In this document: positions 19,107 through 25,599 of the stretch, piece after piece | Layout of the letters: each line of letters opens with the position of its first letter | Position numbering within the stretch: position 1 is the stretch's first letter | DNA from: Verrucomicrobiota bacterium | Lineage (GTDB): Bacteria > Verrucomicrobiota > Verrucomicrobiia > Chthoniobacterales > UBA10450 | Length of the DNA stretch: 37,825 nucleotides | Assembly (NCBI GenBank): GCA_003218975.1 | Contig: QHPD01000011.1 | Span: 1-37,825 of the forward strand | Reading direction: 5' to 3' | Translations under genes and position numbers: made by a program | Notes under the pieces: generated by a model | Told to the model about the DNA's origin: nothing | The model's input: only the letters and a program-made list of their open reading frames with translations | The model's database searches: none

Positions 19107-21375
<2,269 letters not shown>

Positions 21376-21570
21376 ATGAAAAAATCGATCATTCTCATTC
21401 CTGCGCTTTTGATGCTCGGCTTGATGCTGGTGTCTTGCTCAAGCGAACCCCAGACGACCACGACCACAACGCGTCAAACCACTGTCACGTCGGCGCCTCC
21501 GCTTTTGATGGCAAAAACGCATACGCGTCCCCTCTCTGGTCAGCCAGCGATGGACGCAGGCAGTTACTAA
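21376..21570 (+). CDS. Small Thr-rich lipoprotein of unknown function
   Basis: The 64-residue product starts MKKSIILIPALLMLGLML, followed by VSCSS, a standard signal-peptidase-II lipobox. A threonine-rich linker (PQTTTTTTRQTTVTSAPP) and a short polar tail come next. Nothing indicates a specific function; it resembles small entericidin-like or spacer lipoproteins only in general design. The frame is open further upstream, but the lipoprotein signal fixes the start. A strong terminator follows 90 bp downstream. Confidence 0.7.
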   Translation: MKKSIILIPALLMLGLMLVSCSSEPQTTTTTTRQTTVTSAPPLLMAKTHTRPLSGQPAMDAGSY

Positions 21571-21660
21571 GCGCGAGGCAGCTATTCACTGCCGAATCGC
21601 CGATTGCTTAGAGATCTGACGACCGTAGAAGAAACTGTTCTCTCCTAGAAGGGGATTTTG

Positions 21661-21690
21661 AAGGGGACGCGATGAGTCCCCTTATTTTTA
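21661..21690 (+). terminator. Rho-independent terminator after the small lipoprotein
   Basis: AAGGGGAC (21661-21668) pairs perfectly with GTCCCCTT (21676-21683) around a 7-nt loop, followed by ATTTTTA. This is the clearest intrinsic terminator in the window. Confidence 0.85.
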
Positions 21691-21712
21691 TTGCCCGCGC
21701 GGCTGCACGGCT

Positions 21713-22278
21713 CTAGGATGCCGTGGGTTCTTTGAGGCGTCCGAGTATCACTCCGTAGCTCGGGGTTTTCGAATCGCTGAATAGTTGAACCTCGGCAAGA
21801 AGGAGTCGCCGCTTCGTATCTTCGTGGATCTCGATACGATGAAGCAGCCCGGGGTAGTTTCGTATCGAATCCGTGAGGGTGCCCACCCAGCGACCAATGT
21901 CGTCTTCCTCCCCGAGAATAGAGGGAATGACGGGAGATGGACCCTCAAGGCGACGAAGGTCTCCGAGTGCATGTTACGCGACCGGAGTTTGCGGAGCAAG
22001 CGAACCGCGCGCATGGGACCACGTAAGACCTGAAATTCGAACGCCGATGTGATCTGCCGACACCTGGCACATGACGCAGCCGGAAGAACGGCGTTTCCAT
22101 GGAGTCCGAACGGAACGATGTGCTCCCTAGTGAGATTATCGGTTCCGGAACAGTAAATGCAGTGGCCGACGGGCGGATAGCTGAGCTTGGCCAGGTCGCC
22201 GATCCCTTCGAGCGAGCCCTGTAAGACCTCCGACGATAGAGGTGACGCGACCTGTTGGAAGGTGGAACCCATCAGCAC
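21713..22278 (-). pseudogene. HNH-nuclease-like gene, apparently frameshifted
   Basis: The frame starting at 22278 (GTG) or 22272 (ATG) encodes an HNH-type zinc/nuclease core: CIYCSGTDNLTREHIVPFGL, then LPAASCARC. That frame continues to a stop at 21748, but after about residue 100 its composition is odd. A different frame, open from 21973 to the stop at 21713, reads like a genuine C-terminal domain: EEDDIGRWVGTLTDSIRNY, then LAEVQLFSDSKTPSYGVILG. The simplest reading is one gene of about 185 residues with a frameshift near 21960. Two overlapping genes, or a sequencing error, remain possible. The HNH part could be a nuclease of a mobile or restriction-like locus; this is not demonstrated. Confidence 0.55.
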
Positions 22279-22528
22279 GGTTCACGGTGACACTGGTGTG
22301 GATTTTCGGCGGTGTGGGGGTGTCGCTCACACTTCCGACCATATCATGATCGAGCTTTGTCCACCATTTTTGTCCACGCGGTGAATTCAAAACTGGATTA
22401 CGTGGGATACCTAAAGGAAGCATGTGATTTTTGCTCGTAAATGACCCCGAAGATGCCCGACGAAAATAAAAAGGAGTTGATAAATACGTCACTGATATTA
22501 CCATCACATCAATTACCGTTACTGAAGA
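22279..22528. other. Intergenic stretch between divergent genes
   Basis: This 250-bp gap separates the HNH-like gene and the HTH gene, which diverge from here, so it should hold both promoters. It becomes AT-rich toward the HTH gene (about 22460-22525). An AAGGAG at 22471-22476 is too far from the HTH start (50 bp) to serve it. No repeat of the families described was found. Confidence 0.35.
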
Positions 22529-23017
22529 ATGTCAGAAATAGCCTCATCGACGTTCGCCTTACAAGCTCCACCGGCTGATCGTGCCGCCGCGCGCGAAGAG
22601 GCTCGGCGCCAGCTGAAAAAGATGAGTGACGCAATGGTGCAGGAGAAAGGTCTTCTGAACCATGCGCAGGCGGCGTTGCTACTCGATGTGAGTACGAAGA
22701 GGGTGGGCGAATTGGTTCGGCTTGGGAAGCTGACCGATTTCATCTTTCTGGGACGCAAGTACGTTTCGATGAAGGAAGTTGACGAGCGGAGCAAGCAAGA
22801 GCTGAAGGCCGGCCGTCCACGGCGCGGGATTGGGAAGCTGGCCACTGCGAGTCTCAAAGCAGCTGTGAAGACCGATAGCGTACAAGCGTCGCCTGGCGGG
22901 TATGCGGGATCGTATTTCAAGAAACAACGCGAAGAGGCGAATGAGAGGCGGCGAAGAGAATTCCAGAAGAAATGGCGCGCAGTCATAGAGGCGAGAAGAA
23001 ATGAACGAAAGAGCTGA
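22529..23017 (+). CDS. Helix-turn-helix DNA-binding protein, orphan
   Basis: The 162-residue product has an HTH segment at about residues 42-85: LLNHAQAALLLDVSTKRVGE followed by LVRLGKLTDFIFLGRKYVSM. This is the layout of MerR/excisionase-type domains, in which the helix pair is followed by a basic beta hairpin. The flanks are Ala- and charge-rich and the C-terminus is a basic helical tail (EANERRRREFQKKWRAVIE). It may be an excisionase-like or regulatory remnant of a mobile element, given the HNH-like gene on one side and tRNA fragments on the other. No integrase is nearby. Confidence 0.65.
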   Translation: MSEIASSTFALQAPPADRAAAREEARRQLKKMSDAMVQEKGLLNHAQAALLLDVSTKRVGELVRLGKLTDFIFLGRKYVSMKEVDERSKQELKAGRPRRGIGKLATASLKAAVKTDSVQASPGGYAGSYFKKQREEANERRRREFQKKWRAVIEARRNERKS

Positions 23018-23077
23018 TGCTGACGTGGAGGTCTGTCATGAATCTGTCAAGAACACGGCACATTAATGCTTTTACCA

Positions 23078-23110
23078 TGGTGCGCGATGCAGGGTTCAAA
23101 CCTGCGACCT
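23078..23110 (-). repeat. tRNA 3'-end fragment with CCA (inverted)
   Basis: Read on the minus strand it gives AGGTC, then GCAGG-TTTGAAC-CCTGC (T arm), ATCGCGC (acceptor 3' strand), A and CCA. The acceptor strand and discriminator are identical to those of tRNA-Val at 23201-23272, but the T stem differs and the T loop has T in place of the invariant C56. No 5' half is found upstream, so this is a fragment, not a gene. Confidence 0.6.
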
Positions 23111-23200
23111 GTCGCCGCGGCGACCGCTGAAGAAATCTCCCGCTGGCGATGCGCCAGCCTTGTAATTTCCAATTCCTAGTTTCTAATTGCTATCTTCAAC
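23111..23200. repeat. Hairpin-rich spacer before tRNA-Val
   Basis: It contains the perfect palindrome GTCGCCGCGGCGAC (23111-23124) and the hairpin GCTGGCG-ATG-CGCCAGC (23142-23158). The hairpin has the same design as the one inserted in valS (29445-29461). An AT-rich stretch of AATTTCC/AATTCC/TTTCTAATT type follows. Confidence 0.5.
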
Positions 23201-23272
23201 GCGCGATTAGCTCAGTGGTAGAGCACTTGCTTCACACGCAAGGGGTCAGAGGTTCGAAACCTCTATCGCGCA
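23201..23272 (+). tRNA. tRNA-Val (anticodon CAC)
   Basis: The acceptor GCGCGAT (23201-23207) pairs with ATCGCGC (23265-23271), with discriminator A at 23272. The anticodon arm CTTGC-TTCACAC-GCAAG gives CAC. The T arm is AGAGG-TTCGAAA-CCTCT. The D arm GCTCAGTGGTAGAGC is standard. No CCA is encoded. The GIY-YIG gene starts 16 bp after it. Confidence 0.96.
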
Positions 23273-23288
23273 TTTCCCACCCTGCTGA

Positions 23289-23525
23289 ATGTTCTACACA
23301 TACGTGCTGAAATGCGCTGATGACCGGTTGTACATTGGCTGGGCAGCTGACCTCCGGAAACGACTCGTGCAGCACCGTGCAGGCCGAGTACCTGCAACTG
23401 CGCATCGACGGCCAGTCAGGCTGGAGTACTACGAGACGTGTCGTTCCGAGCTAAAGGCGCGACTGCGCGAGAAACAGCTTAAGACCGGATTCGGGCGGGC
23501 GTATCTGAAACGGCGTCTGGAATAG
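23289..23525 (+). CDS. Small GIY-YIG nuclease-domain protein (YhbQ/UPF0213-like)
   Basis: The 78-residue product is a single GIY-YIG domain. YTYVL (3-7) and LYIGWAADLRKRLVQH carry the two name-giving strands and the conserved Arg, and the C-terminal REKQLKTGFGRAYL is the usual end of the fold. Small members of this superfamily cleave DNA in repair or as homing-type enzymes, but their biological role is largely unknown. The start is 16 bp downstream of tRNA-Val, and a second tRNA-3'-end-like sequence follows the gene. This placement suggests a tRNA-associated mobile gene. Confidence 0.85.
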   Translation: MFYTYVLKCADDRLYIGWAADLRKRLVQHRAGRVPATAHRRPVRLEYYETCRSELKARLREKQLKTGFGRAYLKRRLE

Positions 23526-23540
23526 GAGTCGCTCCGCGCC

Positions 23541-23592
23541 CGCAACGCTTCGCGTAGCGATGCGGGCGGGGGTTCGATACCAGCATCGCGCA
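23541..23592 (+). repeat. Hairpin plus tRNA 3'-end mimic downstream of the GIY-YIG gene
   Basis: CGCAACGCT (23541-23549) and AGCGATGCG (23556-23564) form a 9-bp stem with one mismatch. It is followed by GGGGTTCGATACCAG and then CATCGCGCA. The latter matches the T loop and acceptor end of tRNA-Val in about 19 of 24 positions, with ATCGCGCA identical. Its last 10 bases (GCATCGCGCA, 23583-23592) are the exact reverse complement of 23081-23090. Confidence 0.55.
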
Positions 23593-23642
23593 CGTCTCTC
23601 CGCCGCGCTTGCCCTGCACGGCGTGGCGTTCTATTTAGAGAC

Positions 23643-24095
23643 ATGTCCGAACACAAAATCACTCTCACCTGGAAACGCGGCGATAAGCCGTTCGAATATC
23701 AGAAATACTCACGCGATCATACTTGGAATTTTGACGGAAGACATGAAATGGAAGCATCGGCTGCGCCGGCGTATCTGGGCAATCCAAAATTGATCGATCC
23801 GGAGGAGGCATTTGTGGCATCGCTCTCGAGCTGTCACATGCTCACGTTCCTGGCTATCGCATGCAAAAAGAAGTTCGTACTCGATGAATATGTCGATGAA
23901 GCGGTCGGTCTGATGGAGAAAAATGCCGAGGGCAGATTTGCCATTACCCGCGTGATTCTAAGGCAGCGCCTCAAATTCTCCGGCGATAAACAACCGACCG
24001 CACAAGAGATCGAGGAAATGAATCATGCCGCGCATGAGCAATGCTTCATCGCCAACTCGGTCAAGACTGAGGTCAAAGTCGAGACACAGAGCTAG
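23643..24095 (+). CDS. OsmC family protein (peroxide-reducing type)
   Basis: OsmC/Ohr proteins reduce organic hydroperoxides with two active-site cysteines. The 150-residue product has Cys in SLSSCHMLTFLA and Cys in HEQCFIANSVKT, the two expected positions, and the usual opening TWKRGDKPFEYQKYSRDHTW. It belongs to the YhfA/OsmC side of the family rather than to Ohr, by general pattern. The stop codon is directly followed by the MITE-like element. Confidence 0.9.
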   Translation: MSEHKITLTWKRGDKPFEYQKYSRDHTWNFDGRHEMEASAAPAYLGNPKLIDPEEAFVASLSSCHMLTFLAIACKKKFVLDEYVDEAVGLMEKNAEGRFAITRVILRQRLKFSGDKQPTAQEIEEMNHAAHEQCFIANSVKTEVKVETQS

Positions 24096-24229
24096 CCACA
24101 GATTTCCACGGATAAACACGGATGGAGGGACGACCTCCGTGTCGTTCTGGTTCCTTGAACAGGGACGCGACGGAGCGCATCCCTCCAAGTCTGTGGTTTG
24201 AATCCGTGTCAATCTGTGTTCATCTGTGG
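24096..24229. mobile_element. MITE-like element with 28-bp imperfect terminal inverted repeats
   Basis: The left end is CCACAGATTTCCACGGATAA followed by ACACGGAT; the right end read in reverse is CCACAGATGAACACAGATTG followed by ACACGGAT, 22 of 28 matching. A second inner pair, GGAGGGA and TCCCTCC, lies inside. It starts at the first base after the OsmC-family stop and ends 8 bp before the glyQS ATG, so it supplies most of that gene's leader. It encodes no protein. Confidence 0.65.
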
Positions 24230-24237
24230 CGAAAATA

Positions 24238-25599
24238 ATGAGCACGCCCTCGGATTCACAGCGCATGGAGAAGATAGTTAGCTTGTGTAAGCGGCGCGGC
24301 TTCATTTTCCAGTCGAGCGAAATTTATGGGGGTCTCAACGGCCTTTGGGATTACGGACCGCTCGGTGTCGAATTAAAGCGCAACCTGAAGAATTACTGGT
24401 GGCGGGTGATGGTGCACGAACGCGACGACGTTGTGGGCATGGATGGCTCGATTTTGATGAACCGCGCCGTCTGGAAAGCGAGCGGCCACGAAGAGACATT
24501 CAGCGATCCGATGGTGGATTGTCGATCCTGCAAGGCGCGCTTGCGCGCTGACCAGGTGATCGATAAAAAAGGCGTGCGACAATGTCCAAATTGTGGGGGC
24601 AAAGATTTAACCGAGCCGCGCGCGTTCAACTTGATGTTCAAGACCTACGTGGGCGCGACCGAAGACGAATCGTCGATGACTTATCTTCGCCCGGAAACGG
24701 CTCAGGCCATTTTTGTGCAGTTCAAAACCGTTCTGGAAGTGTCGCGCAAGAAATTGCCATTCGGCATAGCGCAAGTCGGCAAAGCGTTTCGGAACGAGAT
24801 TAATCCGCGTAATTTCACGTTTCGCTCGCGCGAGTTCGAGCAGATGGAGCTGGAATATTTTTGCCGGGCAGAGGAGGGGATGCGGTTGCTCGATTACTGG
24901 CTGAAGGAGCGGCTGAAGTTCTACGAAAGAATTGGCATCTCGCGCGGGAAACTCCACGTGCGGGAAGTTCCCGAGGAAGAGCGCGCTTTTTATTCGAAGG
25001 CGAATTACGACATCGAATACGATTTTCCGTTTGGCCTTCAGGAACTGGAAGGCGTCGCTTATCGCACGGATTACGATTTGTCACAGCATCAGAAGGCCAG
25101 CGGCAAGTCGCTTGAGTATTTCGATGAAGAGACGAAACAGAAATTTATTCCACACGTAGTCGAACCGAGCGCAGGCGTGGATCGCACCGTGCTGGCGCTG
25201 ATCTGCGAGGCCTATGCTGAAGACCAAGCGCCGGATGAAAAAGGAAAAATGGAAACGCGTGTCGTCTTGCGTTTTCATCCACGGATGGCTCCGATTAAAT
25301 GCGGCATATTTCCGCTGTTGAAAAACAACGCGCAGCTGGTGGAGAAAGCAAAAGAAATTGTCGATCTTTTACGACCGCACATGTACGTTTTCTACGACGA
25401 GAGCGGCGCGATCGGGCGTCGTTATCGCCGTCAGGACGAAATCGGCACGCCCTTCGGTGTAACTGTCGATTTTGAAACTCTCGGCGAAAAAGACGCGACG
25501 CTGCGAAACACAGTGACGTTGCGCGACCGTGACAGCATGAAGCAACGCCGCGTGGCGATCGGCGAGCTGGCCGGCACATTATTGGCGGACATCACATGA
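24238..25599 (+). CDS. glyQS: Glycyl-tRNA synthetase, dimeric (alpha2) type
   Basis: This class II enzyme charges tRNA-Gly. The 453-residue product begins with EKIVSLCKRRGFIFQSSEIY then GGLNGLWDYGPLG, the signature of the single-chain type. It has a zinc-binding insertion with CRSC and CPNC pairs, motif 2 in KAFRNEINPRNFTFRSREFEQ and motif 3 near SAGVDRTVLALI. The C-terminal anticodon-binding domain starts at about residue 345. The frame is open to a GTG at 24226 inside the repeat, but homology starts after the ATG at 24238. Confidence 0.96.
   Translation: MSTPSDSQRMEKIVSLCKRRGFIFQSSEIYGGLNGLWDYGPLGVELKRNLKNYWWRVMVHERDDVVGMDGSILMNRAVWKASGHEETFSDPMVDCRSCKARLRADQVIDKKGVRQCPNCGGKDLTEPRAFNLMFKTYVGATEDESSMTYLRPETAQAIFVQFKTVLEVSRKKLPFGIAQVGKAFRNEINPRNFTFRSREFEQMELEYFCRAEEGMRLLDYWLKERLKFYERIGISRGKLHVREVPEEERAFYSKANYDIEYDFPFGLQELEGVAYRTDYDLSQHQKASGKSLEYFDEETKQKFIPHVVEPSAGVDRTVLALICEAYAEDQAPDEKGKMETRVVLRFHPRMAPIKCGIFPLLKNNAQLVEKAKEIVDLLRPHMYVFYDESGAIGRRYRRQDEIGTPFGVTVDFETLGEKDATLRNTVTLRDRDSMKQRRVAIGELAGTLLADIT

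Follow-up and report, generated by a model that had tools for sequence, protein, structure and literature searches.

Why does a very small nuclease gene lie between a complete tRNA gene and what looks like a second copy of the same tRNA's 3' end? The question is raised by the genome of a soil bacterium of the Verrucomicrobiota (Chthoniobacterales; UBA10450; GCA_003218975.1), one member of a large genus of draft genomes; every genome in the analysis is a draft, and many are metagenome-assembled (MAGs). In the window, by which we mean the whole 37,825-nt stretch of contig QHPD01000011.1 that was analysed, an intact tRNA-Val(CAC) gene (23201..23272, forward strand; found by ARAGORN, and by Rfam RF00005 with 71 bits) is followed after a gap of 16 bp by a gene on the same strand for a 78-amino-acid GIY-YIG nuclease (23289..23525; PF01541, E=2e-12). 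About 40 bp beyond that gene comes a second tRNA 3' end, made up of T-loop and 3' acceptor strand (GGTTCGATACCAGCATCGCGCA, 23571..23592, forward strand). Directly before it stands a hairpin that we class as type A (GCCCGCAACGCTTCGCGTAGCGATGCGGGC, 23538..23567, with arms extending to 23534-23571, forward strand; DNA fold -12.7 kcal/mol). The GGTTCGATACCAGCATCGCGCA copy is in register with the 3' end of the intact tRNA, and the repeat spacing is exactly 320 bp. A first-pass annotation had described the tRNA, the nuclease gene and the downstream T-loop/acceptor copy, and its coordinates are borne out by ARAGORN, Rfam, PF01541 and the repeat at 320 bp. The hairpin, and a GTCGCCGCGGCGAC palindrome upstream of the tRNA, are additions to that annotation.

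The answer begins with relatives in which the same site is unoccupied. We located the tRNA-Val(CAC) site in 20 genomes of the genus: 14 have a bare tRNA, with neither an ORF nor a duplicated end, two have an ORF-less 93-bp unit, and four have the nuclease gene, which is broken in one of them (L218). The OsmC-like gene (23643..24095, forward strand; PF02566), which is also the neighbour in relatives, serves as the right-hand landmark of the empty site. Three empty genomes share the window's orientation, and their tRNA ends 51-53 bp short of OsmC; the window has 370 bp between its intact tRNA and this gene, and 50 bp between the displaced 3' end and the gene. Between gdhA and OsmC, two groups of the genus carry the tRNA-Val(CAC) gene in opposite orientations (window 19110-25596; L204-L253). 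In the other orientation, bare tRNAs are mostly found 33-58 bp before gdhA (about 810-830 bp from it at the empty sites L227 and L236), and at an occupied site (L249) the distal 3' end is 42 bp before gdhA. Where 3'-end copies exist, the last of them is 42-52 bp from the next gene, compared with 33-58 bp for the bare tRNA in most empty sites. Because the distal end, unlike the intact tRNA, keeps the empty-site distance to the next gene, we conclude that the added DNA separates the intact tRNA from the original 3' end. The net insertion relative to empty sites is 320 bp (23273..23592, forward strand) and consists of spacer, ORF, hairpin and displaced tRNA 3' end. The GIY-YIG gene is the sole gene found within it, and insert sizes of 317-322 bp recur at the tRNA-Val(CAC) locus in relatives.

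The displaced end matches the tRNA-Val(CAC) of an empty relative (L215) with 0/22 mismatches. The flank that follows it shares 41/51 positions with the L215 flank; the one that follows the intact tRNA shares 32/61. Empty-site comparison had been proposed in the first-pass annotation as a check on its reading, and it found no downstream tRNA-end copy in the 14 empty-site relatives; the two gene-less relatives that do have a tRNA-end copy carry a different, 93-bp unit with its own hairpin. The right border of the element falls within the T arm, a placement that is not exact to the base. This empty-site proof comes from one locus, tRNA-Val(CAC); in a second comparison, for a tRNA-Met element, the tRNA was not syntenic in relatives.

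If the displaced end is the original one, where does the 3' end of the working tRNA come from? The 3' half of the intact tRNA (about 23242-23272, forward strand) differs at 1/31 positions from tRNA-Val(GAC) of the same genome and at 6-7/31 from the CAC-type genes of relatives. The tRNA is therefore a chimera of a CAC-type 5' half and a GAC-type 3' half, the latter either supplied by the element or converted. A related nuclease gene is present at tRNA-Val(GAC) in L033/L229, which makes a move of the element from GAC to CAC plausible; ordinary gene conversion between tRNA-Val genes could also have produced the chimeric T arm.

A native end left downstream and a foreign end in use have a known counterpart. 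In fungal mitochondria, mORFs (Allomyces atp6; Glomus atp6, atp9, cox2 and nad3) bring a foreign gene end with them and leave the native end downstream (PMC3630166). Like the window element, they place an endonuclease ORF near the 3' end of a gene and keep the host gene whole, as a hybrid, but their targets are protein genes and their enzymes are of LAGLIDADG or GIY-YIG type (PMC3630166). The window element, in contrast, is 320 bp long, targets a tRNA gene in a bacterial chromosome and has a hairpin adjoining the displaced end. At the tRNA-Val(CAC) locus, the one compared in this way, we find the mORF combination of a native displaced end (0/22) and a foreign functional end (1/31).

We consider it likely that the insert is a tRNA-homing, mORF-like GIY-YIG element of about 320 bp, made up of a spacer, the nuclease gene and a hairpin specific to that nuclease, with its insertion point in the T arm of tRNA-Val. 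The nuclease would cut an unoccupied tRNA gene, and repair of the break would copy the element over from an occupied one, with tRNA sequence as the homology. The copied segment would bring a tRNA 3' half, so that the host's 5' half and the imported 3' half together form a working, chimeric tRNA, and the host's own 3' end would be pushed downstream, behind the hairpin. At the occupied site the element would avoid cutting itself. We infer that the nuclease drives the mobility. By itself, a plain homing model accounts neither for the hairpin nor for the uncut intact tRNA beside the element.

Upstream of the tRNA, on the reverse strand, lies a further tRNA-derived piece (23078..23128). It is an ORF-less unit that consists of the end of a D arm, GTCGCCGCGGCGAC in place of the anticodon arm, and a tRNA-Val 3' end; the 3' end, with CCA, occupies 23078-23108, about 92 bp upstream of tRNA-Val(CAC), and the palindrome, directly beside it, 23111-23124. 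The first-pass annotation had correctly recognized both the inverted 3' end and an exact 10-bp inverted repeat between the outer tRNA pieces, and took these pieces to bracket the element. That part of its reading fails. A similar unit lies upstream of the tRNA in L205, L206 and L218, and L205 and L206 have no nuclease gene; the 10-bp repeat is therefore shared tRNA sequence, and we reject it as the ends of the element. ORF-less units of 93 bp with the same build, ending in a tRNA-Val 3' end and with GTCGCCGCGGCGAC standing in for the anticodon arm, also occur: two in tandem in L006 (2796-2981, a locus identical with L178 of G029) and one each in L232 and L247. In the genome group that includes the window, the ORF-less unit keeps its place with respect to gdhA and OsmC but the tRNA is inverted, as if the tRNA had been turned round after the unit arose. 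Elsewhere in the window's own genome, an orphan tRNA-Pro 3' end has GTCGCCGCGGCGAC in place of its anticodon arm (G000:C150:4130-4143, L261), on a contig with none of the five GIY-YIG genes found in that genome.

Looking beyond this locus, we assembled a set of 210 different GIY-YIG loci, drawn from relatives and from a single scan of GTDB genomes. Of these, 59 (32/71 + 27/139) have a tRNA or tmRNA on the same strand at most 25 bp away, and opposite-strand tRNA or tmRNA neighbours within 250 bp number three. This is in line with the first-pass expectation that small GIY-YIG genes recur at tRNAs; a lack of tRNA association among homologues had been named there as grounds for refutation. By a rough binomial estimate that ignores relatedness, the same-strand association has a probability below 1e-60, so these nuclease genes neighbour tRNAs more often than chance allows. 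Controls confirm the duplicated tRNA piece: the tRNA's own copy beyond the ORF scores at least 40 in 35/88 loci, but control sequence taken 300-570 bp away does so in 0/88 and a tRNA of a different isotype in 2/88. Two layouts occur. Verrucomicrobial loci have the tRNA ahead of the ORF, and it is the 3' part of the tRNA that is displaced. Most Patescibacterial loci are the mirror image, with a complete tRNA after the ORF and the 5' part displaced. Copies extend to the tRNA 3' end in 36/37 cases of the tRNA-first layout, and a clear displaced copy is absent in 22/38 loci where the tRNA follows the ORF. Hence the first-pass proposal of a minimal element that inserts at tRNA 3' ends and rebuilds the end stands as regards the whole tRNA, the displaced original end and the recurrence, but not as regards the 3' end as the general site, since Patescibacteria displace the 5' end. 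Large GIY-YIG subfamilies without any tRNA neighbour exist as well, and the association is thus not general to small GIY-YIG genes.

Several further observations concern the range of these loci. In the scan collection, tmRNA genes adjoin small GIY-YIG genes at L016 (85 bp), L027 (93 bp) and L039, which suggests tmRNA as a further target. Elements at Ala, Ser and Gly tRNAs have 88-212 bp between tRNA and nuclease gene (L184, L185, L191, L202, L114, L141, L082, L132 and L148), and at the Ala loci this gap contains further repeats. L008, labelled Acidobacteria, is similar to the Verrucomicrobial loci, perhaps through misbinning.

SegB, a freestanding phage homing endonuclease of the GIY-YIG family, likewise stands next to genes for many tRNA isotypes, and it cuts within tRNA genes (PMC13096335). 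The window element would have a SegB-like target. In our own reading the SegB site motif, RAWTSGAAC, resembles the T loop. SegB is a phage gene, unlike the window element, and the available part of the report mentions no hairpin at a displaced tRNA end (PMC13096335). The likeness is one of description: the 78-amino-acid window protein itself matches UPF0213-type chains (1ywl, 1zg2).

What, then, is the role of the hairpin? We sorted the palindromes into four types by pattern matching. The palindrome interrupts the displaced tRNA piece at the D arm in most Patescibacteria, at the anticodon arm in Asn, Met, Lys and Pro elements, and at the T arm for Val. On a nuclease tree of 82 rows and 78 columns, in which many forks are unresolved, hairpin type changes 4 times, compared with at least 18 times in 200 label shuffles. 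The tRNA isotype changes 36 times over all loci (shuffles, at least 54). Among the scan-collection loci it is near random (26 changes; shuffles 24 minimum, 28 mean), and among Verrucomicrobial relatives it is clade-specific (11 changes; shuffles at least 23), which may in part be plain vertical descent. Hairpin type is also retained at a different tRNA: L176, of the Lys clade at tRNA-Met, has type C, and L159, of the Met clade at tRNA-Asn, has type D. Type-A hairpins lie beside relatives of the window nuclease in both Verrucomicrobia and Patescibacteria. Because hairpin type follows the nuclease lineage and not the tRNA, the hairpin belongs to the element and not to the tRNA.

This raises an alternative in which the element moves by its palindrome, as the mobile end, and the GIY-YIG protein would serve it as cognate nicking or resolving enzyme; tRNA genes would be favoured targets on account of their folding into hairpins or of short motifs in common with other targets. 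The analogy is with RAYT proteins, tyrosine HUH transposases that are paired with REP palindromes. As in REP/RAYT, the palindromes here are lineage-specific, paired with a nuclease and also dispersed without the gene; unlike it, the window element has a GIY-YIG enzyme and a tRNA gene as its main site. Rickettsia palindromic elements, likened here by description, are also short palindromes inserted into functional genes; we know of no nuclease associated with them. In favour of a hairpin-based element is the tracking of nuclease lineage across different tRNAs in L176 and L159. Moreover, type-A hairpins interrupt tRNAs without any ORF (L271, L278) and are dispersed away from tRNAs at up to 10 per genome (the reversed pattern, 0); in L010, L037 and L104 one such hairpin sits within the loop of a second. 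However, few flanks of dispersed copies pair to form a stem, and a general preference for hairpin loops is accordingly unsupported. Nor does presence of the gene separate genomes with dispersed hairpins: they occur in 5/6 genomes with the nuclease gene and 49/72 without it, among 78 Patescibacterial genomes and as approximate counts, the query being 80% identical to the L014 protein. The hypothesis is also unneeded for the empty-site structure. We therefore regard a hairpin-based element as unlikely, though the strongest of the alternatives, and retain the tRNA-homing element as the preferred reading.

The nuclease itself clearly belongs to the GIY-YIG superfamily (PF01541, 47.6 bits against a cut-off of 22.6), and its PDB matches are the UPF0213 chains 1ywl and 1zg2 (E=7e-5 and 5e-4). 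Its nearest named relatives by sequence are from Verrucomicrobia MAGs; the closest phage matches, with Listeria and Microcystis phage among them, are 37-56% identical. With dN 0.10 and dS 1.13 against L006, the coding sequence is, by this measure, under purifying selection, which fits a protein still selected for activity, whether by the host or by the element. Could the gene instead have been domesticated, transcribed with the tRNA and serving the host, with the tRNA pieces as old duplication scars? The low dN/dS agrees with this, as does a position on the same strand a few bases from the tRNA. But the gene is absent from the locus in 14/20 genus genomes, broken copies exist (L218/L055, L033), and the target tRNA is nearly random on the tree for the scan loci. 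Domestication thus seems improbable.

Still weaker is the notion that the insert is what remains of, or a satellite to, an integrase-type island that attached at the tRNA 3' end and carried the nuclease as cargo. Integration of that kind usually leaves a duplicated tRNA 3' end behind, but the insert is only 320 bp, wholly accounted for and of a recurrent size, and, as first noted, the ORFs scanned around it in the window include no integrase. The mirror-image displacement of 5' ends in Patescibacteria is also not the usual integrase pattern, and we consider this origin very improbable. A group I intron in the tRNA gene is rejected, as the complete tRNA lies upstream of the insert and no intron family in Rfam matches.

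It is tempting to go beyond the window. We suggest, tentatively and with more doubt than we attach to the tRNA-homing element itself, that these loci may represent an undescribed class of bacterial mobile elements, in which small GIY-YIG nucleases, each paired with a palindrome specific to its lineage, would invade tRNA genes across many isotypes and probably tmRNA as well. The class would occur in two layouts, one the mirror image of the other, and would span at least Verrucomicrobia and Patescibacteria, with transfer between these two phyla. Our searches of the openly readable journal literature turned up nothing on elements of this kind in bacterial chromosomes.

If this is true, few self-spreading elements in bacteria would be smaller, and these elements would account for part of the many small GIY-YIG genes, without an assigned role, of soil Verrucomicrobia and Patescibacteria. 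They would also offer a model, open to testing, in which a selfish nuclease survives in an essential gene by rebuilding that gene, and the model predicts that chimeric tRNAs are scars of past invasions.
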